Shown: piece after piece, positions 1 to 14,143 of the stretch | How the letters are laid out: every line of letters begins with the position of its first letter | How positions within the stretch are numbered: the first letter of the stretch is position 1 | Source: Gammaproteobacteria bacterium | GTDB taxonomy: Bacteria; Pseudomonadota; Gammaproteobacteria; UBA6429; Thiohalophilaceae | Direction of reading: 5' to 3' | Assembly: GCA_024641475.1 (NCBI GenBank) | Contig: JAHECZ010000022.1 | Location: forward strand, 1 to 43,720 | DNA length: 43,720 bases | Notes under the pieces: generated by a model | Databases searched by the model: none | Seen by the model: only the letters and a program-made list of their open reading frames with translations | Told to the model about the DNA's origin: nothing | Translations under genes and position numbers: made by a program

Positions 1-570
1 ACCAACGCCGTCGCGATCGCCTGGATCTGCGTCGACGTCAATCCACTCAGTGTGCCCATCACGTTGCCGGCATTATTGGTGATCGCCGTTTGGATCTGCG
101 TGGCGGTACGATTGAGCTTGGTACTGTTCGTCAGCGGATTATGGCAACCCGAACAATTGACAGCATACAGTGTCGGCCCGTCGGTCGGTGGCGGTGTCAC
201 CGATACCAACGCCGTCGCAATCGCCTGGATCTGCGTGGCGGTCAAGCCACTGAGTGATCCCATCACGTTGCCTGCGTTGTAGGTAATTGCAGTCTGGATC
301 TGCGCGGCAGTACGATTGAGTTTGGCACTGGTTGCCAACGGACCATGGCAGCTTTGACAGTTATTGGCGTACAGCGTCGGTCCATCGGTCGGTGGCGGTG
401 TCACTGATACCAACGCCATGGCGATCGCCTGGATCTGCGCAGTGCTTAAACCACTGAGTGATCCCATCACGTTGCCGGCATTGTTACTGATCGCCGTCTG
501 AATTTGCGTTGCCGTGCGATTGAGCTTGCTACTACTTGCCAACAGTCCATGACAACTTTGGCAATTGTTG
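1..570 (-). repeat. Tandem 204-bp coding repeat (heme domain units)
   Basis: Units begin at 570, 366 and 162 when read on the minus strand, giving a period of exactly 204 bp or 68 codons. Two full units and one unit truncated by the window edge are visible. The copies are very similar at DNA level, including long identical stretches around the segment encoding MGSLSGL, which points to recent internal duplication or gene conversion. Confidence 0.9.
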
Positions 571-1649
571 GCATACAGGGTTGGACCATCTGTAACAGGC
601 GGTGGTGGTGTTGATACGTCCGTGATCACCACAACCGTCTTGTCAAATCCGGTAAGATTATTGGCATCCTGCACTGCCAGTGCAACGGTGTATGAACCCG
701 GCTGCGCGAAACTATGACTGATAAGCGGCGAGGTTGTTATCTGTACGACTGAACCATCGCCAAAATCCCACAGATAGCGAACAATTGCTGCGGTGGAGGA
801 TTGACCGGCATCAAAACTGACGGATTGCCCGGTTGTTCCCGTGTAGGGGCCACCGAGATTCGCCACCGGCACAAGCGTGCCACCAATCGTGATGTCCACA
901 AAGGTGGTACTCGTCAGACTAGCATTATCGGTCACTTTTAACGTAACCGTGTAGATGCCGGCTGCACTAAAGGCGTTGACGGCTTGCGGGCCGACCGCCG
1001 TGTGGCCATCGCCGAAATTCCATTCGTATTGATAGATGGTGCCATCAGGATCGTACGAACCAGAACCATCAAAACTCACGGTGGCACCGATGGCAGCAGT
1101 CATCGGTGCGTTAATGACAGCCACGGGAGGCTTCGGCGCCGCATCAGACACCGACACAATCAAATTCGTGTTGGCAACACCATCACCGGTGTTATTGCCA
1201 TCGACATTTGCTGAGACGCTTGCTGCATAGAGAGTGGAGGAACCCAATGTCGCTGGTGCCCGCCAGTCAAAAATCCAGGAAACCGTGCCGTTCGCTGCAA
1301 CATTGGCCGGAGCGGTGTGAGTGATTTCTCCTGATGCCAGGCGTGTGTTGGTCTGCGCAATTAATGCCGAAAGAATCCCGGCACTGGCGCTGACATCCAA
1401 ACCACCTGTTTTCTGTTGACCACCAGAAATCGTTAAAGTGTAGCTATTGAGGCTATTCGGGGTAACGGCGTGAGGTCCCGACAGGGTAATCGAAGGCGCG
1501 ATACCACCTGCGTGACAAGCGGTACAGGTACTGCCGTTTTTGCCCGAATACCCGGTAATGCCGCCGCTATAACCAAATACCTGCTGACTGGTTAACAAGA
1601 TCAATGACATCAAAATGACATTGATATGAAAGTGTATGTTGATCTTCAT
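1..1649 (-). CDS. Secreted multiheme protein: choice-of-anchor V-like domain, two PKD domains, tandem cytochrome c repeats (partial, C-terminus off left edge)
   Basis: The frame is open from the ATG at 1649 to the left edge (549 codons, no stop). A signal peptide (residues 1-26, ending VFG) precedes a Tyr-Ser-Gly-Gly start and a heme motif CTACH at 42-46, in a segment resembling the choice-of-anchor V (Reeler-like) domain, about 27-168. Two PKD domains follow at about 172-257 and 259-345, each with a W-x-FGDG core. From residue 351 come small cytochrome c units with CQSCH at 363 and 431 and CSGCH at 499, spaced exactly 68 residues and joined by Pro/Thr linkers; each unit also has a Met (NVMGSLSG or NVMGTLSG) that could be the distal heme ligand. 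The product is probably exported and surface-exposed, and its position downstream of the mto-like genes suggests a role as an outer electron carrier. That role is inferred. The number of heme units is unknown because the gene is cut. Confidence 0.85.
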   Translation of the reverse strand, partial: MKINIHFHINVILMSLILLTSQQVFGYSGGITGYSGKNGSTCTACHAGGIAPSITLSGPHAVTPNSLNSYTLTISGGQQKTGGLDVSASAGILSALIAQTNTRLASGEITHTAPANVAANGTVSWIFDWRAPATLGSSTLYAASVSANVDGNNTGDGVANTNLIVSVSDAAPKPPVAVINAPMTAAIGATVSFDGSGSYDPDGTIYQYEWNFGDGHTAVGPQAVNAFSAAGIYTVTLKVTDNASLTSTTFVDITIGGTLVPVANLGGPYTGTTGQSVSFDAGQSSTAAIVRYLWDFGDGSVVQITTSPLISHSFAQPGSYTVALAVQDANNLTGFDKTVVVITDVSTPPPPVTDGPTLYANNCQSCHGLLASSSKLNRTATQIQTAISNNAGNVMGSLSGLSTAQIQAIAMALVSVTPPPTDGPTLYANNCQSCHGPLATSAKLNRTAAQIQTAITYNAGNVMGSLSGLTATQIQAIATALVSVTPPPTDGPTLYAVNCSGCHNPLTNSTKLNRTATQIQTAITNNAGNVMGTLSGLTSTQIQAIATAL

Positions 1650-1686
1650 AGCACCCACCTCTATCGTTATTCTTTTTACTGAGGTC

Positions 1687-1767
1687 GTATTAGGATCGCG
1701 ATACAGAACTACTGATTACCTGAGGTATTTCGCTATTTGTAAAAACTTTATTAGTTCGTCCTAATAC
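1687..1767. repeat. 9-bp inverted repeat in the probable leader of the repeat cytochrome gene
   Basis: GTATTAGGA at 1687-1695 is the exact reverse complement of TCCTAATAC at 1759-1767, with 63 nt between. If transcription starts from the FNR-type promoter near 1778, both arms lie in the untranslated leader and could pair at the base of a large stem. A function is not established. Confidence 0.35.
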
Positions 1768-1812
1768 ACCATGTTCGTTGATTCTTTCTACCATCTATAT
1801 GCAATAAATCGA

Positions 1813-1826
1813 ATGATCTGGATCAA
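1813..1826 (-). promoter_or_regulatory. FNR/Anr-type box upstream of the repeat cytochrome gene
   Basis: On the minus strand the site reads TTGATCCAGATCAT, matching TTGAT-N4-ATCAA at 9 of 10 positions. In a class II arrangement (centre at -41.5) the -10 hexamer would fall at 1790-1785, where the minus strand reads TAGAAA (4 of 6 matches to TATAAT). The transcript would start near 1778, leaving a leader of about 130 nt. Binding is inferred from the match and spacing. Confidence 0.5.
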
Positions 1827-2018
1827 GTGGTTTTTGATTTTGACTCTCCCATTGGTGATAGGTTATGTCCCTCAAAAATAAAGTGTATTTCTAATATGGA
1901 GATTATGCTGCAACCGAATTAATCCCTGAATAATCGCATTCTGGAATACTATTTCATGGCGGCGCCTGGTGTAACTTAGTTACGACCAAGCTGCAATATA
2001 TGAAGATACAGCCCCCGC

Positions 2019-2618
2019 TTATTCCTCATCTTCCTTATATTCTTTTGGAAGCAAATGCGCGATGCCCTTGTGGCAATCAATGCAGGTTTTATTTTCTTGC
2101 TTCGCCTTCTCATGTTCCTGCTGGGCACGAGGCTTTTGTTTTTTCACATCCATGCCATCGAAACTGTGACAATTGCGACACTCACGTGAATCGGTTTCTT
2201 TCATGTGCTTCCATTCGTTGGTTGCCAGTTCCATGCGTTTGGCCTCGAATTTTTCCGGTGTCCCGATCGTCCCCATTACCTTGGCCGGTAATTCCTTAAC
2301 CGTAGCTTGCGCCTTGCGAGCGACCTTGTGTATCCAGTCTTTGGGTACATGACAATCCGAACAAATGGCACGTACACCGGTGCGATTGGAATAATGAATG
2401 GTTTCCTTGTATTCCTGATATACCGTGTCGCGCATCTCATGACACGATGTACAGAATTCCAGACTGTTGGTGGCTTCCATCGCCGTATTAAATCCACCCC
2501 AGAAGATAATGCCGGAAAAAAAGCCCACCAGTAACAATGTCAGCAAGGAATATTTTGCGCTGGGTTGCTTCAGGACACTCCAGCAACGGTTAATCAGTCC
2601 GGGGTTATTGTTATTCAT
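2019..2618 (-). CDS. cymA: Tetraheme NapC/NirT-family quinol-linked cytochrome c (CymA-like)
   Basis: The 199-residue product has a single N-terminal membrane anchor (about 23-42) and four heme motifs: CTSCH at 56-60, CSDCH at 86-90, CRNCH at 147-151 and CIDCH at 179-183. The CTSCHEM sequence at the first heme is typical of NrfH/NapC/CymA proteins. The family exchanges electrons between membrane quinol and periplasmic cytochromes. The start at 2618 is preferred over an in-frame ATG at 2669 because GGAG lies 5 nt upstream of it and the downstream sequence begins the usual short cytoplasmic tail. It is the last gene of the mtoD-mtoA-mtoB-cymA-like run, starting 66 nt after the barrel gene. The exact member of the NapC/NirT family cannot be fixed from sequence reading alone. 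Confidence 0.88.
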   Translation of the reverse strand: MNNNNPGLINRCWSVLKQPSAKYSLLTLLLVGFFSGIIFWGGFNTAMEATNSLEFCTSCHEMRDTVYQEYKETIHYSNRTGVRAICSDCHVPKDWIHKVARKAQATVKELPAKVMGTIGTPEKFEAKRMELATNEWKHMKETDSRECRNCHSFDGMDVKKQKPRAQQEHEKAKQENKTCIDCHKGIAHLLPKEYKEDEE

Positions 2619-2684
2619 GACCACTCCAGTTGTTTTTCTTCCTGGATGAGATATCTGCCGTCCTACCAAGCTTGGCCATAAAAT

Positions 2685-4847
2685 CTAATGGAACTTGTAA
2701 ATATAGCGCAGCCCGATGAAATTCGACTTCTGTGTTTGTTTTGCCGTGACGGTGGTGCCGTCTACGACAGGCACTGGCGTGAGTGAACAACCGGTACACG
2801 TTATATTACCTGTATAATAAGTAAATGGTGTGCCGTCGGCGAAGTTCCAGGACCAGTCATCCGTGTGCCAACGCTCGTGAATCAAATCAATACGCAAGTC
2901 CGTATTCTTGTCGAAAGCATATTTGGCATCGAGTTTGAGACGGAGAAGATTGTTTCTGATATCGGGTAGAGGCCCGGTTGTACCCGTTGGGTAATCCGTC
3001 CCGGCGCCGGTCAGCGTCAAATCCTGAGGGTAGCTGCTGGTAGTTTTGTACCAATCAACACCCGCACCACCATCAATTTTGGCGCTGAGCTTACCGCGCA
3101 GATTGATCCCCAGAGAATCTCCGACATCCTTTAGATGTGCATTTTTAACTGCGTCGGCCGCGCCAGTAGACGCGGCTCGAAAACCAATTTGCTCGGCCTT
3201 GGTGACATCATTGGTGTACCAGGCAGATAACTTCCAATCTTCGGAGAAAGCATAGCTGCCATCGACGCCATAGAGTTGTGCGGTACCTTCCTTCAATCCA
3301 TACGGTCGCCCAGCGTCTGGATATTTGTCTTTACTATGTTCTACGCGAAATTGCATTGACAATTTTTCTAGCGGTTCCCAGTCCATCGCAGCACGCCATT
3401 TATCACGATTACGATCCGCAATATGGATTGGGTTGATCTCGTTGGCATACGGCGTACCGTTCGCGTCAGTATACGTAGATCCGTCTCGGCTGCTATGCAG
3501 ATAGGCCAGACTACCGCTGAGTGCATCCGCAAAGGCGCGACGCAATTGCAGCCGGTAAGTAGTTTCCTTGAGATCGGAACGGAAAGGAACATACACGTTA
3601 CCCATAGTCGGATAGGTACGATCCTGACTCGAATAATCCACGCCACCAATCACGCTGAAATTTTGCGGCAGACGATAATTCGCTTCCAGTTTTCCTGACG
3701 TGGTCTTAACAGAATGTGGTGTGTTCCATACACTGATAACACCTGTGCCATTGTTACCAACATAACCCGCCAACGGTGTCTTGTCATTGATATCGTTATA
3801 ACGCAGATTGGCCGTTATCGATAATTTTGGCATCGGCCGGGAATTGAGTCCGAGCTGCACTACTGTAGTATCAATCTGCCCGTCCAAATGCGATGGTGCA
3901 TTTACAAAAGGTGCATTGGCGCCGGCAAGATCATAGGAAGGCAAATGTTCATCCTGGGTTGCTCGCGTGTAGGAAGCCTTAAAGGTCCCGCGTGTTGTGG
4001 GAGTAAACGTATAACCGCTGTCGATGAATAATTGATGTGCTTGATTACTTAATGGCAGTGATAACGGAGTAGTTGCATTGAATTGTGCACTAGTTCCACC
4101 CGTCACACCATTTAGCTGTTCAAGTACCTGTAAATTGTGATTATCATACATACTGCCAAAGTAACCGCCAGAGATTTGCAGTTGTTCACCGGTATATTGC
4201 AAGATCATTTCAATCTGACGCGTGGTGCTGTCGAGTGGTTCCACTGAAAAGAGCGCGGCACTGCCCCAACCCCATTGCCGGGTTCCTGTCTTGTTTTCAT
4301 TTTTAAAATCGATCTTCAAGTCAAGGCCTGGACTGAGATTGATAAATCCTCCCAGGCGGGTCAATTCACGTGTTGTTCCCAGCTCGACCTCACGCTGGGT
4401 AAAGGAACCCAGTGATGTGCCTACCGTAAGATCTGTTGTGCCAATTCCTTGCAAGCCTGTCGTGAAGGTGTAAGGGTTATCGCGCGTGATCCGGTTAAAT
4501 TCAAAAAATCCTCCATAGTTACCCTGACGAATATAGTCACCGCGTACCTCTCTATTATCGATACCCAAATTGCGCACATCGAGCTTAAGCCAGGTTCCAG
4601 TTAAATCATCGCGGCTAACGATATCAGCATCAAATAACCCATAAATACCGCCATCACGCATACCATCGTATATGCCCAGCTGAGGACGATCGCCAGACCA
4701 ATTGCCGACACCAATAGAAATGGAACTTACCGGCTTAATCATTTGCGCCATATCTGCATCAGTTTCGTCGGCATGTACAGAACATAGAGCGGCCATTAGT
4801 GCAGCGGAGATCGCAGTTCGCTTGAATGTCAGGATATTCTTATTCAT
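2685..4847 (-). CDS. mtoB: MtrB/PioB/MtoB-family outer-membrane beta-barrel
   Basis: The 720-residue protein has a signal peptide ending near SVHA, then a long chain of alternating amphipathic strands with frequent aromatic residues and Asp/Asn-rich turns, ending in Tyr-Lys-Phe-His. Early blocks such as GDRPQLGIYDGMRD and FEFNRITRDNPYTF are typical of the decaheme-associated porin family. It should form the sheath that holds the decaheme cytochrome in the outer membrane. The start at 4847 sits 7 nt after a GGGAG; in-frame starts at 4853 and 4868 lie too close to or before that site. The only cysteines of the mature chain form a CTGC pair near the C-terminus (684-687); the N-terminal CxxC known in Shewanella MtrB is absent. 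It starts 21 nt after the decaheme gene. Confidence 0.88.
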   Translation of the reverse strand: MNKNILTFKRTAISAALMAALCSVHADETDADMAQMIKPVSSISIGVGNWSGDRPQLGIYDGMRDGGIYGLFDADIVSRDDLTGTWLKLDVRNLGIDNREVRGDYIRQGNYGGFFEFNRITRDNPYTFTTGLQGIGTTDLTVGTSLGSFTQREVELGTTRELTRLGGFINLSPGLDLKIDFKNENKTGTRQWGWGSAALFSVEPLDSTTRQIEMILQYTGEQLQISGGYFGSMYDNHNLQVLEQLNGVTGGTSAQFNATTPLSLPLSNQAHQLFIDSGYTFTPTTRGTFKASYTRATQDEHLPSYDLAGANAPFVNAPSHLDGQIDTTVVQLGLNSRPMPKLSITANLRYNDINDKTPLAGYVGNNGTGVISVWNTPHSVKTTSGKLEANYRLPQNFSVIGGVDYSSQDRTYPTMGNVYVPFRSDLKETTYRLQLRRAFADALSGSLAYLHSSRDGSTYTDANGTPYANEINPIHIADRNRDKWRAAMDWEPLEKLSMQFRVEHSKDKYPDAGRPYGLKEGTAQLYGVDGSYAFSEDWKLSAWYTNDVTKAEQIGFRAASTGAADAVKNAHLKDVGDSLGINLRGKLSAKIDGGAGVDWYKTTSSYPQDLTLTGAGTDYPTGTTGPLPDIRNNLLRLKLDAKYAFDKNTDLRIDLIHERWHTDDWSWNFADGTPFTYYTGNITCTGCSLTPVPVVDGTTVTAKQTQKSNFIGLRYIYKFH

Positions 4848-4868
4848 GTTCATTCTCCCTAAGATCAA

Positions 4869-5957
4869 TTAACGACGGAACCGACCGGCGGTTGCGCTGT
4901 TGACGGTGCTGTTGCCGCCATGAATATTCGTGTGACAGTTCAGGCAACCACGCGCGACAGAACCCATTAATGAGGTACTGTTACTCGGCGCATTGGGTAA
5001 TGCTGCTGCCTGACCCGGGTGACTGTCATGCGAATGACATTCCTGGCACAGGAACGGCGGACGCGCCTTCAGCAAGTTGGTAATGTTGGAGCCGTGCGGA
5101 TTGTGGCAAATACTGCAATCTTCGGTAACCGGCTGGTGATTGTGTACAAACGGCCCACGCTTCTCCATGTGGCAAGTAAAACAGGTTTCGTTGACACTGC
5201 CTCTAGCCATCATTTTTGGATTGTCGCCATGCACGTCATGACACGATACGCAGGCCAACTTACCTTCTGGAATAGGATGATGGGATAGTTTGCTGATTTG
5301 GGTACGTTGTTCTTTGTGACAGGAGAAACACACTTCGGGTTGCGTGCGTTTGTCACGCACCTTGTCATGCGCGGTATGAATCTGGTGACACGAAGTACAG
5401 GTGACATCGCGATTGGCGTGAACACCCATTTGCCAATTGATGTGTTTGCCACCCTGGTGGCAGGCTAAACAGGCATTTGTACGTTCCTCTGCCGAAGTAG
5501 GAGAATTTTTCGCAAAATAACGATCAGGCAGTGGGCGATCCTTACCGCCACCGGGATTGCTTTCATGCGCGCTACTCTCACCATGACAATTGGTACACGT
5601 CGGCGTACGACTATCTGCTACTGTGCCGTGTTTGGTTTTGCCAATGGATAACACCTTCGGGCTGTCGCTTTCATCGTGGCAACGCGTGCACTTTGCATCA
5701 CCCGTCAAGACGAGATCTTTAGGCGCAGGTTTGCTCGCCGTTGCCAGCGGCGCACCCGTTGCGGGTGATTCAGCTGTGGCGGGTGTTGATACAGCAGGCG
5801 ATTCGGTTGCAGCGGGAGTTTCGGTGGCAGCCGGCGCTACAGTTGCTGCGGGTGCCTCAGTTACAGGTGTAGCATCAGCAGCCCGTACATAATCGGCTAT
5901 TCCCAGTGCACTGCTCATCAGGCACATCAAAAATAATTTACTGAGCGCGTTCATCAT
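4869..5957 (-). CDS. mtoA: Periplasmic decaheme cytochrome c, MtrA/MtoA/DmsE family
   Basis: Ten CxxCH motifs lie at residues 90, 121, 163, 187, 210, 236, 259, 281, 304 and 338, the count and length expected of MtrA-type cytochromes (362 residues here). A signal peptide ends near YVRA at 26. Residues about 27-80 are a low-complexity Ala/Pro/Thr/Glu linker before the first heme. The family forms a heme wire inserted into the MtrB-type barrel, and the next gene encodes that barrel. Because AGGAGG lies only 2 nt before the first ATG, the second ATG (5954) may be the true start; the products differ by one residue. Together with the flanking genes it matches the mto gene order of Fe(II)-oxidising Sideroxydans, so inward electron flow is likelier than metal reduction, but sequence cannot settle direction. 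Confidence 0.9.
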   Translation of the reverse strand: MMNALSKLFLMCLMSSALGIADYVRAADATPVTEAPAATVAPAATETPAATESPAVSTPATAESPATGAPLATASKPAPKDLVLTGDAKCTRCHDESDSPKVLSIGKTKHGTVADSRTPTCTNCHGESSAHESNPGGGKDRPLPDRYFAKNSPTSAEERTNACLACHQGGKHINWQMGVHANRDVTCTSCHQIHTAHDKVRDKRTQPEVCFSCHKEQRTQISKLSHHPIPEGKLACVSCHDVHGDNPKMMARGSVNETCFTCHMEKRGPFVHNHQPVTEDCSICHNPHGSNITNLLKARPPFLCQECHSHDSHPGQAAALPNAPSNSTSLMGSVARGCLNCHTNIHGGNSTVNSATAGRFRR

Positions 5958-6025
5958 TCCCTCCTCTTCCTCGATTATTTAAGTCGCTATTGTCGGAGCG
6001 AGCAGCCGGGCAATGACTTCCTTAG

Positions 6026-6382
6026 CTATTGCAGTGAAAGGATCCAATTTACTAAATTCTTGATCTGTTCCATGTCTTTAGTCTTGATGATCTTGTGATC
6101 TTCTTCATGACCATCGGGAAACTTGGCCTTCTCACCCGTGGTGATGTGGGTTATCAGGCGTTCTTCTGATTTGGCGATGGGTTTGCCGCGATATTTATCG
6201 GCCACTTCTTTATAGGTTGGGCCATCTTTCTTTTTGTCGACGGCATGACATTTAAAACAACCGTTCTGCCGCGCCAGGGTTTTGGCGGCCTCGGCATCTA
6301 CTGCTAACACAGGGTGTGACAGGCTGAACACACAAGTGATTGCAAGTAGATTGAAAAGGGTTTTGGTTACGCGCGGGAACAT
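6026..6382 (-). CDS. mtoD: Periplasmic monoheme class I cytochrome c (MtoD-like)
   Basis: The 118-residue product has a signal peptide ending near VLA at 27 and one heme motif, CFKCH at 42-46. The C-terminal helix motif LVNWILSL is typical of class I cytochromes. The start at 6382 has AGGAG 9 nt upstream; the ATG at 6391 directly abuts that site and is unlikely. It is the first gene of the mto-like run, 68 nt before the decaheme gene, and probably shuttles electrons in the periplasm. The position where class I cytochromes usually carry Met-Pro reads Phe88-Pro89, so the standard axial Met seems to be missing; Met104, His92 or His96 could substitute. Confidence 0.82.
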   Translation of the reverse strand: MFPRVTKTLFNLLAITCVFSLSHPVLAVDAEAAKTLARQNGCFKCHAVDKKKDGPTYKEVADKYRGKPIAKSEERLITHITTGEKAKFPDGHEEDHKIIKTKDMEQIKNLVNWILSLQ

Positions 6383-6545
6383 ATTGTTCATCTCCTGAAG
6401 TATTAACAAAGAGTTATTAACCAAACTTTCAGATTGAAGATACACCCGAAATACGCGGAAGCAATATGGGTAACCAGCTATTTCGTAGTTTGTTGATCGC
6501 TGTCATATTCGTAATTGAATAGCTTAGGCGACCTGCGTCAATTTC

Positions 6546-6559
6546 GTGATCCAGATCAT
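6546..6559 (-). promoter_or_regulatory. FNR/Anr-type box upstream of mtoD
   Basis: The minus strand reads ATGATCTGGATCAC, matching TTGAT-N4-ATCAA at 8 of 10 positions. Its 12-bp core TGATCTGGATCA is the exact reverse complement of the core upstream of the repeat cytochrome gene. The -10 expected for a class II site (about 6523-6518) is weak here. Confidence 0.42.
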
Positions 6560-6732
6560 TAATTCTTACATTGCTGATACGAACAGTTGGGTAATTTTAG
6601 AGAACACTCGCCGTAATGCCATTTAAGTTAACTACCATTAGATGCTGGTAATTCCAACTCCCGGCGAGAATATATGTAGATACTTGCACTACCGCGAAAA
6701 TTCTACAGCTGTTTGACTTAGGATATTTTTGC

Positions 6733-6757
6733 GGTGCCAGCAAACCCTGCTGACACC
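6733..6757 (-). terminator. Hairpin downstream of ntrC
   Basis: A 10-bp stem (6733-6742 with 6748-6757, one G-U pair) closes a 5-nt loop about 23 nt after the ntrC stop. No T-run follows, so it may be a weak terminator or an mRNA 3'-end stabiliser. Confidence 0.4.
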
Positions 6758-6779
6758 GTATTGAAATGGCTGATTTGGT

Positions 6780-8183
6780 CTAGACGTGCTCTTCCATGCC
6801 TAATTCCTTGATCTTGCGTGTCAAGGTATTGCGGCCCCAGCCTAATAATTTGGCGGCATCCTGGCGGCGGCCACCGGATTTACGTAACGCGGTCTCGATC
6901 ATGACGCGTTCGAATTGCGGCATGACGCGTTCAAGAATGCCACTGTCACCGCCGGCGAGTTGTCGTTCGACCCAACGCCGTAACACTTCAACCCAGTCGC
7001 CGGTCTTGGTTTCTTCGCTTTGATCGGATTGCAGCTCCGTTGGCAGGTCTTCACTATGGATAACCTGACCAGGTGACATCACAGTTAGCCAGCGACAAGT
7101 GTTTTCCAATTGCCGCACATTACCGGGCCAGGGCAGACGACTCATGTATTGTTCGGAATCCTTATCGAGGCTCTTTTGTTCGACATTCAATTCGGTGGCG
7201 GCGCGACTCAGGAAATATCTGGCGAGCAGGGCAATATCTTCCTGGCGTTCACGCAGTGGTGGAATATGAATGCGGATCACATTCAAGCGATGGAATAAAT
7301 CTTCGCGGAACAATCCTTGCGTCACACGCTGCTCCAGATTTTGATGCGTCGCAGCGATGATGCGCACATCCACTTTAATCGGATTATGCCCACCGACCCG
7401 ATAGAACGTGCCATCTTGTAATACCCGCAACAAACGCGTTTGCAACTCTTGCGGCATATCACCAATTTCATCCAGGAACAACGTGCCGCCATCGGCTTGT
7501 TCGAAGCGACCAACTCGCGATCCCTGCGCGCCGGTAAACGCGCCTTTTTCGTGACCAAACAATTCAGATTCCAGCAAGTCGCGGGGAATCGCCGCCATGT
7601 TCAACGCGATAAACGGTTTGCTGGCTCGCGGACTGTGTTTATGCAGCGCCTTGGCCACCAGCTCTTTACCGGTACCGGATTCGCCGTTAATCAGCACGGT
7701 GATATTCGATCGCGACAAACGACCAATGGCACGAAATACTTCCTGCATCGATGGTGCTTCACCAATGATTTCCGGGGTAATCGCGATCTCGGTATTTTGT
7801 GGCTGTGTGCGTTGCTTGGCCAGGCCGATTGCGCGGCGGGTTAATGCCACGGCCTCATCGACATCAAAGGGTTTGGGTAAATACTCAAACGCTCCGCCCT
7901 GATAAGCTGACACCGCGCTATCCAGATCGGAATGGGCCGTGGTGATGATCACCGGCATATTCGGATCACGCGCATGAATATGTTTGAGTAATTGCAATCC
8001 ATCCATACCCGGCATACGAATATCGGTAATGATGACGTTGGGACTTTGCCGATCCAGCGCACGCAACACACTGTCGCCATTCTCGAACGTCTTAACCTCC
8101 AGATCCGCCTGTTTTAAGGCTTTTTCCAGTACCCACCGAATGGAACGATCGTCATCTACAACCCATACTGTTTCCATACTCAT
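6780..8183 (-). CDS. ntrC: Nitrogen regulation response regulator NtrC (sigma54 activator)
   Basis: The 467-residue protein has the three domains of NtrC: a receiver with acidic pocket DDD at 10-12 and phospho-acceptor Asp54, a sigma54-interacting AAA+ domain with Walker A GESGTGKE and an intact GAFTGA loop, and a C-terminal Fis-type helix-turn-helix ending in the block [20 protein letters not shown]. It activates sigma54 promoters when nitrogen is scarce. The start is supported by GAGG 5 nt upstream. It follows ntrB with an 18-nt gap and is surely co-transcribed with it. Length and motif content match enterobacterial and pseudomonad NtrC. Confidence 0.96.
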
Positions 8184-8201
8184 CGTTGCCTCACACCTGC
8201 A

Positions 8202-9269
8202 TTAAATTGGTAAGAAAATAGAAAACACGGTTTTACCCGGCATACTGTCGCATTCGATAATGCCACCATGCTGCTGCACCAACCGCTGCGCAATCGATAA
8301 ACCCAGGCCAGTACCATCGGCACGCCCGGTGATCATCGGATAAAAAATCTTGTCGCGAATATCTGCGGGCACGCCCGGACCATCGTCGATAACCTCAACG
8401 CCAAGCACCAGACGATGCTGCTGTTGACCAATGGTAAATTTACGCATCACTCGCGTACGGATAATAATGTTGCCGCGTTCTCCCAAAGCCTGTATTGCGT
8501 TATTAACGATGTTGAGTACGGCTTGAATCAATAAATCCGGATCGGCGTTTATATCAGGAATACTCGGATCGTAATCACGATGTATACGGATATCCTGCTG
8601 TTCCCCGCTGGTGACAATATTGCGTACGTACTCCAATACTTCGTGAATGTTCGTCTCGCGCATTTTTGGCATGCCACTCGGGCCGAGCAGACGATTCACC
8701 AGTTTTTGCAGGCGATCCGCTTCATCAATAATCACACGGGTATATTCTTTTAATTCATCATCCACTAATTGCTTTTCGAGTAATTGGGCTGCACCGCGCA
8801 GCCCGCCCAATGGATTCTTGATTTCATGTGCCAACCCGCGTAACAGTTCGCGCGTCGCGCTTTGTTGCGAAACCAGAGTTTCATCGCGCGAGATGCGAAT
8901 AATGCGATCCATCGGTTTGAGTTCCAGCAGTATTTCCGGTTGGGAAAGATTTTCGTGCAGGACCGTGACGGAGATATCCGCCGTCATCTCCTGGCCATTG
9001 AGTAACTCGAATACATGTTCATGTTTTGAAAACGGGTGGCCGCTGCGCAAGGCCTCCTGTAATGCCGGCAACAGCTGTTCGCGTGAATGGACCAATTCAT
9101 CCAACGGCAAGCCTGCCAATTGCCGGGCGCTGCCGCCAAATAACATCTCCGCCGCCGGATTGATATAGCGCAACCGCAAGGCAGCATCGAACAGCAATAC
9201 CGCGTTACTCAGATTTTCGAGTACCCGGCTGGGAATTGCCGTAGGGTGGGTGTTTTCGGTCATGATCAT
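8202..9269 (-). CDS. ntrB: Nitrogen regulation sensor histidine kinase NtrB
   Basis: The 355-residue soluble kinase has an N-terminal PAS-like domain (about 15-125), an H-box GLAHEIKNPLGG with phospho-acceptor His148, an N-box (NIVNNAIQAL) and G-boxes (DDGPGVP, GTGLGLSIAQ). It has no membrane segments, as expected for NtrB, which is controlled by PII. Two in-frame ATGs (9269 and 9263) are possible and neither has a clear ribosome binding site. A DUF4124 gene lies upstream on the same strand, a common neighbour of ntrB in gammaproteobacteria, but glnA is not in this window. Confidence 0.95.
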   Translation of the reverse strand: MIMTENTHPTAIPSRVLENLSNAVLLFDAALRLRYINPAAEMLFGGSARQLAGLPLDELVHSREQLLPALQEALRSGHPFSKHEHVFELLNGQEMTADISVTVLHENLSQPEILLELKPMDRIIRISRDETLVSQQSATRELLRGLAHEIKNPLGGLRGAAQLLEKQLVDDELKEYTRVIIDEADRLQKLVNRLLGPSGMPKMRETNIHEVLEYVRNIVTSGEQQDIRIHRDYDPSIPDINADPDLLIQAVLNIVNNAIQALGERGNIIIRTRVMRKFTIGQQQHRLVLGVEVIDDGPGVPADIRDKIFYPMITGRADGTGLGLSIAQRLVQQHGGIIECDSMPGKTVFSIFLPI

Positions 9270-9482
9270 GTTCTTTGTTTAGCAATTACCAAACCAAGAT
9301 AGTGCGTACTTAAGCCGCCTCGGCAAAATATCCAAAACAATATAATAATCAAAGAAAACAATAAGATATCTCGCGATGGACATTCCCCCGATCGACGCCT
9401 TAGACCTGATGACGCACCAATATGGAATTAGTGTAGCGAGACACGCCTGTAAACGCACTAAAAAGGTGCGAATGGCAGAGAT

Positions 9483-10049
9483 TTACTTTTTAACGGTTGG
9501 CCGACGTACAAAAAATGTGACCGGCGGGGTGGTCAGCACCATGGTTCCGGTATTATCGCGTATTTCCACGCTAACCTTGTGTTCGCCACGTGCTACGTTG
9601 GTTTGCAATAAGGACAGTCCATTGTGTGGTATCGCTTGTCCATCAAGGATGTAAACCAGACCATGGCCAGGCTGCAGACCGGGTTCGATCATGAGCTGGA
9701 TGGTGACTTCACCCGTGTCTGCCCACAATGTTTCTTCCTTACCGGGAAAACTGACATAGAACAAACTGTAGTTGTTCGCACTGTTGTGATTCGTTGGTTT
9801 GGACGGCGGAACATACGGAGTAAAATTTGGCACGGGCACGGGCTGGTAAGTATTACTGGCCGGCGGCGGTATGTCGATTTCCTGTGCGCCTTTGCTGGGC
9901 TGATCACTGAAGATCACTTCGCCGTTCGGGCCTACACTACGAAAAACCTTTTTCTCGCTGTCATCCGTCGCAGGCTTGGTCTCCTCAGCCAGCGCCACGT
10001 GGCTGACTAATGCCAGCAAGAGCAACCATTGCCAATATGTCCGGGTCAT
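9483..10049 (-). CDS. DUF4124 domain periplasmic protein
   Basis: The 188-residue protein has a signal peptide ending near VALA at about 21 and a DUF4124 motif at about 34-61 (KVFRSVGPNGEVIFSDQP). A Pro-rich linker leads to a C-terminal beta-rich domain with GLVYILDGQ and GEHKVSVEIRD, as in other DUF4124 proteins beside ntrBC. No catalytic residues are evident and the function is unknown. It lies 19 nt downstream of mshN and 213 nt upstream of ntrB, and that gap has no gene and no obvious terminator. Confidence 0.8.
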   Translation of the reverse strand: MTRTYWQWLLLLALVSHVALAEETKPATDDSEKKVFRSVGPNGEVIFSDQPSKGAQEIDIPPPASNTYQPVPVPNFTPYVPPSKPTNHNSANNYSLFYVSFPGKEETLWADTGEVTIQLMIEPGLQPGHGLVYILDGQAIPHNGLSLLQTNVARGEHKVSVEIRDNTGTMVLTTPPVTFFVRRPTVKK

Positions 10050-10068
10050 GCACTGATATTAGCTTATT

Positions 10069-11154
10069 TTAGTCGGTCGTACTTAATCCGGTTTCCTGCA
10101 GCACACGCAAACGATTATCTGTATAACGTGCTACTTCTAATGACAAATTGCCACTGGCGCGGGCATGTTCAAATGCCGTTTTGGCTGCGCCTTGCTGGTG
10201 TTGTGCCTCCAGTGAGATGCCCATACCGACCCACCACACGCCCACATTGGGATTTTTGGCCAATAGCTGCTGATAAATATTCACCGCCTGGGCATGTTGA
10301 CCCAAACGTTGCTGCAATACCGCCATGAGGGCGTAATGTTCCGGATCGACTGACGGTGGCGGTGCAAATTGTGTCAACACCGCGATGGCCTGTTTATCCT
10401 GATTCAGTTGCATCAGCGTCCGGGCCCGTAATTTTACCAACGATGGTTGTACCGGCAACAATTTCAATCCTTGCGCCAACACGGCATCGGCTTCAATCCA
10501 TCGGCCAGTCTTTATATATAGTCCCACCAGTAATTCCCGCAAACGGTGTTGTGTGGCATCCTGTTTTAGTGATTCACGCAATTGGCTTTCTGCTTCACGC
10601 CAGCGTTGTTGGGCAATGAGCTCGTAGGCTTGCTGATAATTTATTGCCAGCTGTTCTGTTGCGCTGGGCAAAACGGGATGTTTTTGTACAAGCATTGGCT
10701 CACTCGCACCGCTGCTCTCAACCTCTTCCTGTGATTGTGCTGCTACCTGCGGCTGGTTTGACTTACGATGCCGCGATGCGTGTATCGGCACTTCGGGTTG
10801 CCCGGATACCGTTGGCGGTGCTGCACTCATTGACTCTTTCATCTCCGGCACAGTCGCCGGAATGCTTGCCGGGGCAACCTGACTTGATATTGGTTGTGAA
10901 ATCACCGCGACTGGTGTTATTAAATTGGTTTGTTGTGCCGGAATATTCACAGCATGGTTACGCCATAAATAAATTCCGGTCGCTGCTGCAACGATTAACG
11001 CCACAACCACAATCCATTTTAAAATTAACCAGTTCCGTGAACCTGTGTTTGGTGCAGGCACATAACGCACATGTTGCAGAATTGTTGCGCCTTCACCGGC
11101 CTCGGCAACCTGGCGCTGCTCCAAATCCTTGAGTACCTGATTGATTAAACTCAT
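10069..11154 (-). CDS. mshN: MSHA biogenesis protein MshN (TPR protein)
   Basis: The 361-residue protein begins with the typical MSLINQVLKDLEQR block, has one membrane segment at about 42-64, a low-complexity periplasmic linker, and a C-terminal domain of TPR repeats (about 170-350). In Vibrio, MshN belongs to the MSHA type IV pilus assembly apparatus. It overlaps the mshM stop by one base (TGATG), so translation is coupled. It is the last msh gene of this block; the expected mshE does not follow. Confidence 0.9.
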   Translation of the reverse strand: MSLINQVLKDLEQRQVAEAGEGATILQHVRYVPAPNTGSRNWLILKWIVVVALIVAAATGIYLWRNHAVNIPAQQTNLITPVAVISQPISSQVAPASIPATVPEMKESMSAAPPTVSGQPEVPIHASRHRKSNQPQVAAQSQEEVESSGASEPMLVQKHPVLPSATEQLAINYQQAYELIAQQRWREAESQLRESLKQDATQHRLRELLVGLYIKTGRWIEADAVLAQGLKLLPVQPSLVKLRARTLMQLNQDKQAIAVLTQFAPPPSVDPEHYALMAVLQQRLGQHAQAVNIYQQLLAKNPNVGVWWVGMGISLEAQHQQGAAKTAFEHARASGNLSLEVARYTDNRLRVLQETGLSTTD

Positions 11155-12017
11155 CAGGCTGCCGCTGGACGATTTATCAAACGACGCCAGAATGATACGG
11201 CGGTTAATTCACACTGTGCATCGTCGGTATCTTTAATCGCCAGCCGCACCCAATCCGGTTGAATCTTACGTGAACCCCGTCCGTATGCCAGTAACAGGGA
11301 TTTGTGGCACAAGGTATTAATCAAGCGCGGAATACCGCGTGAAGCGCTATAAATATAATCCAGTGACTTCGTATCAAACGGTGGTGCTGACGCATACCCG
11401 GCAACACACAAACGATGATTGATATACGCAGCCATACCGTCACGATCGATCGGCTGCAATTCATATGAATACGTAATTCGCTGCTTGAGTTGCCGCACAC
11501 TCTTGCGGTTGAGCAGTTCATTCAACTCGGGCTGGCCAAACATAACGACTTGCAACAGTTTAAACTTTTCGGTTTCCAGATTGGTCAATAATCGTAGTGA
11601 TTCAATCGTTTCTTCCGGCATCGCCTGGGCTTCATCGATACATAATACGACGCGTCGCCCGGCCTGAGCACACTCAATCAATTTTTCCGTGATGGCTTTT
11701 TGTAAGCGATGCACATAACGGCTGACCTTGATCCCCAATTCTTCTGCCACTGCAACCTGCAGGCCGTAGGCGGTGAGTTGCGGGTTAGGGATATATACAA
11801 TTACAAATTTATCACCGAGGGTAGCCATGAGTTTGCGGCATAATAATGTTTTGCCCGTACCTACCTCACCGCTGACCTTGATAAAACCCTCACCGGAGCG
11901 TAACGCGACCAATAGTGTATTGAGTGCATTGGCATAATGCCCGTACGCAAAAAAATAACTCGTGTCGGGCGACAACGTAAACGGTATTTCTTTAACGCCA
12001 AAGAATTTTTGATACAT
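11154..12017 (-). CDS. mshM: MSHA biogenesis AAA ATPase MshM (ExeA-like)
   Basis: The 287-residue ATPase starts MYQKFFGVKEIPFTLSPD, typical of the ExeA/MshM family, with Walker A GEVGTGKT at about 45-52 and Walker B VVLCIDEAQ at about 122-130. Relatives use ATP to help the secretin find its place in the cell wall. It follows the mshL secretin gene by 7 nt and overlaps mshN. Confidence 0.92.
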   Translation of the reverse strand: MYQKFFGVKEIPFTLSPDTSYFFAYGHYANALNTLLVALRSGEGFIKVSGEVGTGKTLLCRKLMATLGDKFVIVYIPNPQLTAYGLQVAVAEELGIKVSRYVHRLQKAITEKLIECAQAGRRVVLCIDEAQAMPEETIESLRLLTNLETEKFKLLQVVMFGQPELNELLNRKSVRQLKQRITYSYELQPIDRDGMAAYINHRLCVAGYASAPPFDTKSLDYIYSASRGIPRLINTLCHKSLLLAYGRGSRKIQPDWVRLAIKDTDDAQCELTAVSFWRRLINRPAAA

Positions 12018-12024
12018 GATGGCT

Positions 12025-13773
12025 TTAACGTCTCGTCGTGGTTGCCGATTTTACGGCGACATTGTCCGGAAACATGTCATGAAATTGCGCCTGACTATTA
12101 CGCAATCCCTGCGCCCAGCTATTGGCGTCATCCACTACAGTGGGTTTGAGCAAGATGACCAGCTCACTCTTAATCATCACCTGCTTGTCATGCCGGAACA
12201 AATTACCAATTAACGGCAAATCGCCGAGCAGAGGTACTGACGCCTGATCGTTGGCTTTACGATTTTTCATCAATCCGCCAATGATCACCACCTGACCATT
12301 TTTGGCGCGAATCATCGTATCGGATTCACGTATTGAACTCACTGCCAGTGGCACGCTTAACGTCGTTGCTGAGGAAACACTGATATTTTTAACTCGCTCC
12401 GTCACATCAACTACAGTTGGATGGATATGCAAGGTGATATCACTGTCTTCCGAGATTTGTGGGATCACGTCCAGCGCCACACCCGAAAAGAACGGGGTAA
12501 GCTCTACATTGTTTTGGGTACTGCTGGTTGCAGTACCGGTATTGGTACTGGACTCCACATTGGTCACGAAAAATTCATCCGTTCCTACTTTAATGACCGC
12601 TTTCTGATTATTCATCGTGGCGACTTGCGGGCTCGATAGCACCTGCACGTCGCCCTGGGTCTTGAGCAACTCCAGGAAGGCTGAAAAATTCTGCTTGATA
12701 TTCAATGCGGCTGTAAACATGCCACCAAAGGCGGATGTCGCTGTTGACGTTACCTGTGCAAGATTGGCTGGATCAAGCGTACCGGTATTACCTTGCAAAT
12801 TGCTTACGCCACCTGACAAAATGGAACCTCCGCCTATCTGGCCCAACAATACCTGGCTGCCACTTGCCGTTGTCTTTAATGCGGACCAATTAATTCCTGT
12901 CTGATATCCATCGCTCAAACTTACTTCTACTACTTTGGCTTCGAGTAATACCTGTCGCTGCATGATGCTCTGCGTGGTTTCCAGATAGCGTGCGACCGCG
13001 CGCAATTCCTCTGGCATGGCACGAACAACAATCACACCGGATTGTGGGCTAATCACGACATTGCGACCCTTATCCTTGCCGATTAACGCGACTAAGGCCT
13101 GCTGCACTTCTTTCCAAAAATCCGAATCATTACTGGTGTCGATACTGCTTGCTGCCACGGTTTCACGCGAATTACCACTATTGCCTGCACTACTGCCGGA
13201 CGCGCTCTGCCCGCCGCCACGCGCAGTTTGGGTTACCTGTCCGGAACTGACCTTGAGTTTTGAACTGCCGCTACGATGAATGTCCAGATAGTTTACTTTG
13301 TAGATTCGTGTGCGCATGGCATCGGGGAAAACATGATAGGCATTGCGTGACTTTTCATAGTCAAACCCATAAACACTGCGTACCGTTTCCATCACTTCAT
13401 CCACGCTGACATTTTTCAGCTCCAGAGTGATTTGTCCCTTTACCTGCGGATGCACCACCATGTTATACGCGGTACCATCGACTAAACCCATAAAAAAGGA
13501 TCGCGCATCGGCCCGATCAACTTTTAAATCAAAATGCGGTTCTGTATCGATTTGTGCCTGTAACGGCAGATCCATTTGCAGTGGCGGTACTAATGCATTA
13601 CTTACTTCGCCGGGTGGCTTTGGCGTTGCTGCGCCTTGTTGATTTTGTTGCACGGCCTGTTGCAGGGTTTGTTCAATCATCGATTGCGTATGATTATCTC
13701 GCTGCGGAGCAGTCGCACAACTGCTGAGCCAGCAGACACTTAGCAGTAAAGTGAGCTTGTATTTATTTGCCAT
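12025..13773 (-). CDS. mshL: MSHA outer-membrane secretin MshL
   Basis: The 582-residue lipoprotein has a lipobox (LSSC at about 16-19), an N-terminal STN-like domain (about 80-175), a Ser/Gly/Asn-rich linker and a C-terminal secretin domain with the signature VPLLGDLPLIGNLF near residue 525. It should form the outer-membrane pore for the MSHA pilus. It overlaps mshK by 11 nt. Confidence 0.93.
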   Translation of the reverse strand: MANKYKLTLLLSVCWLSSCATAPQRDNHTQSMIEQTLQQAVQQNQQGAATPKPPGEVSNALVPPLQMDLPLQAQIDTEPHFDLKVDRADARSFFMGLVDGTAYNMVVHPQVKGQITLELKNVSVDEVMETVRSVYGFDYEKSRNAYHVFPDAMRTRIYKVNYLDIHRSGSSKLKVSSGQVTQTARGGGQSASGSSAGNSGNSRETVAASSIDTSNDSDFWKEVQQALVALIGKDKGRNVVISPQSGVIVVRAMPEELRAVARYLETTQSIMQRQVLLEAKVVEVSLSDGYQTGINWSALKTTASGSQVLLGQIGGGSILSGGVSNLQGNTGTLDPANLAQVTSTATSAFGGMFTAALNIKQNFSAFLELLKTQGDVQVLSSPQVATMNNQKAVIKVGTDEFFVTNVESSTNTGTATSSTQNNVELTPFFSGVALDVIPQISEDSDITLHIHPTVVDVTERVKNISVSSATTLSVPLAVSSIRESDTMIRAKNGQVVIIGGLMKNRKANDQASVPLLGDLPLIGNLFRHDKQVMIKSELVILLKPTVVDDANSWAQGLRNSQAQFHDMFPDNVAVKSATTTRR

Positions 13774-14143
13774 GGGAATCTTTTCCAGCCATGCGTTTGA
13801 AATCGTTGGGAAGCAATTGCAAATTTACGGTTTTATTGTTTTTTGCGGGTTGCAATGTGACTTGATTTGGCTCAATCGCCAGCACCCTGGCACCATTGAT
13901 GTCATCACCCACATCGACGCGTTTTCCATTTATCGTGGCAGTACGCCGCTCAGTTGCAATTAGTATTGCTGTCAGCATCCAGCGTGGCTGAACAGTTACG
14001 TGCTGACTGCCTTTATGACTACTTTCGCCGCCCGGCGGTAAGGTCGGATCGGATAAAATTTCAGCATACACAGTTCTACCGGCCAGGACTGCCAGGAATA
14101 TGGCACTAAGAAGCGGAAATTTGACGGTTAAATCAGACACCAA
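13763..14143 (-). CDS. mshK: MSHA biogenesis protein MshK
   Basis: The 126-residue protein has a signal peptide followed by the DPTLPPGG motif characteristic of MshK/PilP-like pilus alignment proteins, and a short beta domain with INGKRVDVGDDINGARV. It probably links the inner-membrane complex to the secretin. It overlaps its neighbours on both sides by 11 nt. Confidence 0.82.
   Translation of the reverse strand: MVSDLTVKFPLLSAIFLAVLAGRTVYAEILSDPTLPPGGESSHKGSQHVTVQPRWMLTAILIATERRTATINGKRVDVGDDINGARVLAIEPNQVTLQPAKNNKTVNLQLLPNDFKRMAGKDSHGK

Follow-up and report, generated by a model that had tools for sequence, protein, structure and literature searches.

The closest described counterpart of the heme protein discussed here is PgcA of Geobacter, in which heme domains are borne on flexible linkers and for which electron exchange by tethered diffusion has been proposed (PMC11520253). 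PgcA is described as a lipoprotein whose linkers are long (PT)x stretches and one of whose domains is His-His, and the number of hemes varies across its homologues (PMC5732950; PMC11520253), paralogues with 3-14 hemes being mentioned in PMC11520253; the same source gives PDB 8QJ6 and 8QJG as heme domains I and II, both with His-Met ligation. PgcA is extracellular and reduces Fe(III) oxides, and its His-His domain is described as the mineral-reducing one. A second point of comparison is the MtrCAB conduit: MtrAB-like loci without MtrC are described in Methylobacter (PMC13322032) and in Gallionella and Sideroxydans (PMC8805035), and the survey presented in PMC8805035 required mtrC in the cluster.

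The window, that is, the whole stretch of DNA analysed here, is an entire contig (C12; 43,720 bp) of a 131-contig genome, and its base 1 is an assembly break, so that the gene at its left edge is cut there by the assembly. The gene lies in a minus-strand frame at 3..1658, translated into 552 residues and open at the contig end. Its likely start is an ATG at 1649, which gives the N-terminal 549 residues of the protein at 3..1649; the alternative start is a GTG at 1658. All features of this gene given below are on the minus strand. The N-terminus is a hydrophobic signal peptide, and translation shows no Cys before residue 45, hence no lipobox for N-terminal lipid attachment. A choice-of-anchor V domain (NF041895) follows at 1164..1601 (residues 20-165, counted from the GTG at 1658), with the heme motif CTACH at 1512..1526 (residues 45-49). 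Pfam recognises two PKD stretches, at 891..1133 (residues 176-256) and 630..836 (residues 275-343), and three Cytochrome_CBB3 stretches that correspond to tandem PgcA-like heme units. These units lie at 399..602 (CQSCH at residue 366, with the distal Met column), at 195..398 (CQSCH at residue 434; the best match to PgcA domains I and II) and at 3..194 (CSGCH at residue 502), the last being cut near its end by the contig end. Their CxxCH motifs are spaced by exactly 68 and 68 residues, and pairwise identities among the three are 56/68, 49/65 and 54/65 (75-83%). An earlier note on this DNA had described a CTACH motif, two PKD domains, 68-residue CxxCH units, a possible distal Met and Pro/Thr linkers, all of which are borne out by translation, Pfam and alignment; the N-terminal region, which it had left unnamed, is the known choice-of-anchor V domain.

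When the unit region was compared with PDB sequences (phmmer, E <= 0.001), only 8QJ6 (2e-13) and 8QJG (2.7e-13) were retrieved, with both CxxCH and Met aligned; PgcA of Geobacter sulfurreducens is represented in the PDB by 8QJ6, 8QJG and 8QK0. Of 66 aligned units from the window gene and its relatives (an alignment made without G790 and the second G029 piece), 65 have Met in the distal column, the 66th being cut by a contig end. His-Met ligation, as in PgcA domains I and II, is thus predicted for the units. The likeness to PgcA therefore lies in homologous monoheme domains, predicted to be of the His-Met type, arranged three or more in tandem and joined by Pro-rich linkers. The differences are several. 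The window protein has no lipobox; PgcA includes one His-His domain, whereas Met is found in each of the 65 complete units aligned here; the units come after a choice-of-anchor V domain and PKD domains; and the gene is found next to mtrA-mtrB, with a separate monoheme lipoprotein. In addition, the linkers between units are 6-16 residues long, much shorter than the long (PT)x linkers of PgcA, so that transfer between beads may be more ordered than free diffusion. Two types of unit can be told apart by what follows the heme, KLNR in one and GGxY or the like in the other. For some units the closest match is a neighbouring unit of their own protein (99% in L052, 88% in L053), which fits duplication inside the gene; for most units of G030, G031 and G032 it is the counterpart in a sister genome.

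The N-terminal domain of the window protein scores 153 bits against NF041895, with a cut-off of 42, and shares with the proteins of that family a domain bearing CxxCH. The proximal His of this heme motif is present in 17 of 17 aligned domains. The column of His114 (1317..1319) holds His in 15 of the 17 and Gln in the other two; His114 may therefore be the second ligand of the N-terminal heme, a candidate assignment under which the choice-of-anchor V heme might be of the His-His type. The proteins considered here differ from the NF041895 family at their other end: none of the eight complete MtrAB-linked members has a hydrophobic C-terminal tail or qualifies as carrying a C-terminal sorting signal, while G026, a distant relative that shares the N-terminal domain and this kind of unit, has a JDVT-CTERM sorting signal. 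The highest mean tail hydrophobicity among the eight is 1.08, compared with 1.58 in G026 and 2.28 in G018, although the values of some other members overlap on this measure. Domains of the choice-of-anchor V and PKD kinds are typical of surface proteins. An AlphaFold2 model of the G001 protein, built from 11 sequences (mean pLDDT 71, pTM 0.36, with low confidence in the heme part), consists of a beta domain, two PKD-like beta domains and three helical units. Among the 50 Foldseek matches listed for this model, PKD domains were among the best, the others were mostly beta-rich proteins, and no cytochrome appeared.

Elsewhere in the genome, the search showed such heme units at a single site, from about base 3757 of contig C102 onward; contig C71 gave two more weak matches, to the PKD part. 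The C102 frame lacks the N-terminal domain, encodes five units and closes with a Gly-rich tail, which would be the window gene's own end. It is followed by the gene of a monoheme lipoprotein, for which we coin the name lipoC, and by those of a decaheme MtrA-family cytochrome and an MtrB porin (PF11854); on the opposite strand are encoded a protein with two CxxCH motifs, labelled c4-like on size and motif only, and a CymA-like tetraheme cytochrome. In G001, a genome of the same genus, a complete protein of 564 residues with three units is encoded on a 128 kb contig, and the order protein, lipoC, MtrA, MtrB, then c4-like and CymA-like genes on the other strand, is found on that one contig. Given that C102 carries the sole other units of the genome, that this order stands on one contig in G001, that the final unit of C102 has its closest match in the final unit of G001 (73%) and that the gene of G029 is split over two contigs in like manner, we infer that C12 and C102 very probably hold two pieces of one gene with at least eight units. 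The two contig ends have no exact overlap of 9 bases or more, so part at least of one further unit is probably missing between them. In the window's genome the gene thus very probably sits between the mto-like cluster of the window and an MtrAB cluster of its own.

Two other explanations of the broken gene were rejected. Had it ended after the third unit as in G001, the C102 fragment would not have units without an N-terminal domain, nor would its last unit be nearest to the last of G001; that the repeats are an assembly artefact is at odds with the 12 genes of the same type, several of them inside long contigs. C102 is itself probably chimeric before base 3757, because its G+C content steps from 31% (bases 1-3756) to 47% (bases 3757-14000) and near base 3757 one repeat-rich frame abuts another to which it is unrelated. 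A plasmid search with bases 1-3700 of this contig gave no relative.

We counted as a member any gene that encodes this N-terminal domain and two or more such units, with no C-terminal anchor seen. There are at least 12, namely the window gene and those of G001, G029, G030, G031, G032, L052, L054, L053, G140, G338 and G790, the named-genome scan having taken in 80 of 253 relatives. L052 and L054 are two genes of one Gammaproteobacteria MAG, and L053 (uncultured Ectothiorhodospiraceae) is identical to contig C12 of G216 over the 17,001 bases compared. The gene is present in 6 of the 40 genomes of the window's family; among 398 genomes of the phylum, with at most two candidates scored per genome, only the window's genome itself gave a match at E <= 1e-30, and a plasmid search with the protein returned one archaeal record only, matching the PKD part. 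The earlier note had proposed a modular protein whose length may vary with repeat number, to be followed leftward beyond the contig end. By way of the inferred join, that extension adds the five further units of C102 and no unrelated terminal domain, and the complete relatives have 3 units (G001), 5 (L053, L054, G338, G790), 6 (G140), 8 (G030) or 10 (G031, G032).

In all nine single-contig cases that reach far enough (G001, G030, G031, G032, L053, L054, G140, G338 and G790), lipoC is the next gene, and a simple pattern finds a lipobox in eight of the nine lipoC proteins, that of G338 being without one. MtrA adjoins the gene-lipoC pair in eight of these nine cases, G790 being the exception; it is cut by the contig end in G030 and L054, and MtrB follows it in all six loci that extend further. 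In G140 and G338 the pair is oriented away from mtrA-mtrB. The window gene and that of G029 have the same order (gene, lipoC, MtrA), across a contig break. As regards the direction of electron flow, which may be inward or outward, RuBisCO was found in four of seven member genomes (the window's, G001, G140 and G338) and not in G031, G032 or G216, the last being 72% complete. In G001 a second match to the RuBisCO large chain (C37, 11280-12203) shares a contig with the conduit cluster, at a distance of about 100 kb.

The position of the gene was set against that of MtrC. With the C102 MtrA as query (E <= 1e-50), 28 loci were found in 25 of 369 genomes of the class, and the neighbours were inspected at all 28. 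The gene occurs together with lipoC at five of them (C102 of the window's genome, listed as G000; G001; G216; G140 C222; G338). At six others, MtrC is encoded directly before MtrA, with 470-508 bits against TIGR03507 (MtrC/OmcA; cut-off 209). The two kinds of neighbour never coincide (0/28), although G140 carries one locus of each kind. Neither is seen at the remaining 17 loci, some of which are cut by contig ends; the window's own mto locus is counted here since lipoC is absent from it, though the gene lies three genes downstream of mtoA. In the 22 loci newly added for this comparison, no frame of 80 residues or more matches the choice-of-anchor V profile, and the lipoC profile has two matches, to a three-heme protein of G091 and, weakly, to a two-heme protein of G403. 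TIGR03507 does not match the window protein, is absent from the window's genome (estimated 97% complete) and matched one of 11 genomes tested, G140.

By gene order, then, the gene and lipoC stand in the place taken by MtrC in classical MtrCAB loci, adjoining mtrA-mtrB; for the window gene itself, this position depends on its inferred continuation on C102. Loci of the two kinds also have MtrA proteins that are neighbours in a tree of 25 proteins (22 of the 28 from the class sample, leaving out G325, G251, G249, G344, G403 and G369, and three others): the eight gene-associated MtrA proteins form one group among the MtrC-associated ones, with moderate support (81/83), and the MtoA of the window falls in another part. 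Apart from the missing TIGR03507 match, the proteins differ from MtrC/OmcA in that their hemes are beads on a string, while those of MtrC are packed in a decaheme, and in that the lipoprotein role may here have moved to a second protein. The earlier note had suggested that the protein may fill the role of an MtrC missing beside the mto-like genes. The role itself agrees with the MtrC slot occupied in relatives and with the absence of MtrC from the genome, but the partner was misplaced, our results supporting a link to the second MtrAB cluster and not to the mto cluster. The search for proteins of the same domain order found homologues linked to MtrAB, and for these members the feared outcome, homologues apart from electron-transfer loci, did not arise.

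The mto-like cluster lies next to the gene in the window, in the order mtoA-mtoB-cymA, and all of it is on the minus strand: a CymA/NapC-NirT tetraheme cytochrome (2019..2669), an MtrB/PioB (MtoB-like) porin (2685..4868), a decaheme cytochrome of the DmsE/MtrA family (MtoA-like; 4869..5957) and a class I monoheme cytochrome c (6026..6445), which from its position we take to be MtoD-like. MtoAB belongs to iron oxidisers such as Sideroxydans. This neighbourhood raises the possibility that the gene serves the adjacent cluster, or both conduits: cymA, on the same strand, lies about 360-370 bp upstream of it, and in the window's genome it is flanked by the two conduits. We nevertheless regard such service as rather improbable. 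A close MtoB is found in one of 40 family genomes, the window's own, the next best having 28% identity (22 of the 40 genomes reach 90% completeness with no more than 5% contamination), whereas the second MtrAB accompanies the gene in other genera and in four families. The MtoA, moreover, groups apart from the MtrA proteins that accompany the gene. The adjacency to mto genes therefore looks specific to this lineage, in which the cluster (2019-6445) was probably acquired or solely kept, and we rejected it as a conserved partner.

Heme proteins of related make-up were met at other loci. In G026 and G018, which with G017 and G025 make up the set L046, L047, L049 and L050, a choice-of-anchor V protein has PKD domains and heme units interleaved, and two complete proteins of this kind have 1130 and 1234 residues with 11 and 12 hemes; the members of G017 and G025 are PKD-heme fragments. 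The neighbours at these four loci are a protein of about 670 residues and cytochromes with 21 and with 11 to 15 hemes, not MtrAB, with an 18-heme cytochrome as well in G026 and G018; this looks like another surface electron-transfer cluster. No electron-transfer neighbours were recognised beside the anchored choice-of-anchor V heme proteins of G075 and G322. In G164 (L173, 1697-4741 and 8244-10718), an 824-residue 10-heme protein with PKD-like motifs has a 24-heme cytochrome in its neighbourhood. A protein of G084 (L169, 7546-11826) has 1426 residues, 14 CxxCH and two PKD-like motifs, with no choice-of-anchor V match and no recognised electron-transfer neighbours. Finally, Nitrospirae GWC2_57_9 (L055, 2828-4672) encodes a 614-residue protein with a lipobox apparent by eye and five CxxCH units matching those of our query; it gave no choice-of-anchor V match, and nothing MtrB-like was matched in the locus.

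Taken together, we think it fairly probable that the protein serves an MtrAB-type outer-membrane conduit as its extracellular arm for electron exchange, a flexible string of tethered hemes that replaces MtrC. It would be exported by Sec through its ordinary signal peptide, and its choice-of-anchor V and PKD domains would form a stalk outside the cell; this placement is suggested by the signal peptide, by these domains, by the MtrC slot and by the JDVT-CTERM of G026. Beyond the stalk would extend a string of small His-Met heme domains, presumably with the fold of PgcA, and by homology electrons would hop from bead to bead through domain collisions, as in PgcA tethered diffusion. Gain or loss of units would change the reach of the arm. 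At the outer membrane, lipoC probably bridges the string and MtrA/MtrB, and gene order suggests a handover of electrons among MtrA, lipoC and the string. Against this reading count the locus of G790, where the gene and lipoC are present and MtrA and MtrB are absent in the 16 kb examined, and the G790 protein itself (L237, 7738-9684), whose choice-of-anchor V domain has C-x4-CH (CIKSGCH) where other members have CxxCH; the distant relatives that stand beside other multiheme clusters, or beside none that was recognised, are likewise counted against it. A nanowire polymer was also considered and set aside, the evidence being neither for nor against it.

The same hemes could instead form a periplasmic string that carries electrons from or to CymA or a diheme cytochrome and MtrA inside the cell envelope. 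Neither a lipobox nor a C-terminal anchor is seen, and the cluster also encodes CymA-like and diheme cytochromes. We think it unlikely all the same, since the choice-of-anchor V and PKD domains are of a kind typical of surface proteins, G026 has its sorting signal, and the gene takes the MtrC slot at loci several of which already encode CymA-like and diheme carriers. That the protein is an adhesin, or binds a polymer or mineral, with hemes secondary (e.g. for sensing or peroxide removal) is very improbable: its PKD domains do resemble those of collagenases and its heme units weakly match peroxidase and CcoP models, but these scores are far below the cut-offs, a Met ligand would block peroxidase chemistry, and the linkage to MtrAB holds in four families.

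What is new is the combination, the parts being known: in place of MtrC, a PKD stalk bears heme beads of the PgcA type, and gene order ties this protein to MtrAB and to a small lipoprotein. We found no paper that combines a PgcA-type, choice-of-anchor V or PKD heme string with MtrAB in the open-licence literature, which is weak evidence of absence. To the extended form of the extracellular arm reading we give an even chance: in a single evolutionary event, MtrC would have been replaced by a lipoC adaptor and a PKD-borne string of 3-10 PgcA-type hemes, its length tuned by tandem duplication, and the result would be a distinct porin-cytochrome system of Gammaproteobacteria and, as far as the literature searched shows, the first tethered-heme cytochrome genetically wired to MtrAB.

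Surveys that require mtrC, such as the one presented in PMC8805035, would miss a cluster of the gene, lipoC and MtrAB. For MtrAB loci without MtrC, lipoC and the heme string offer a specific candidate for the outside component, and a handover between two proteins that can be tested. The tethered-diffusion idea formed on PgcA would thereby be extended from Geobacter to a conduit with an identified genetic partner and, if the proposed mechanism is true, these bacteria would reach outward by adding beads instead of assembling nanowires.
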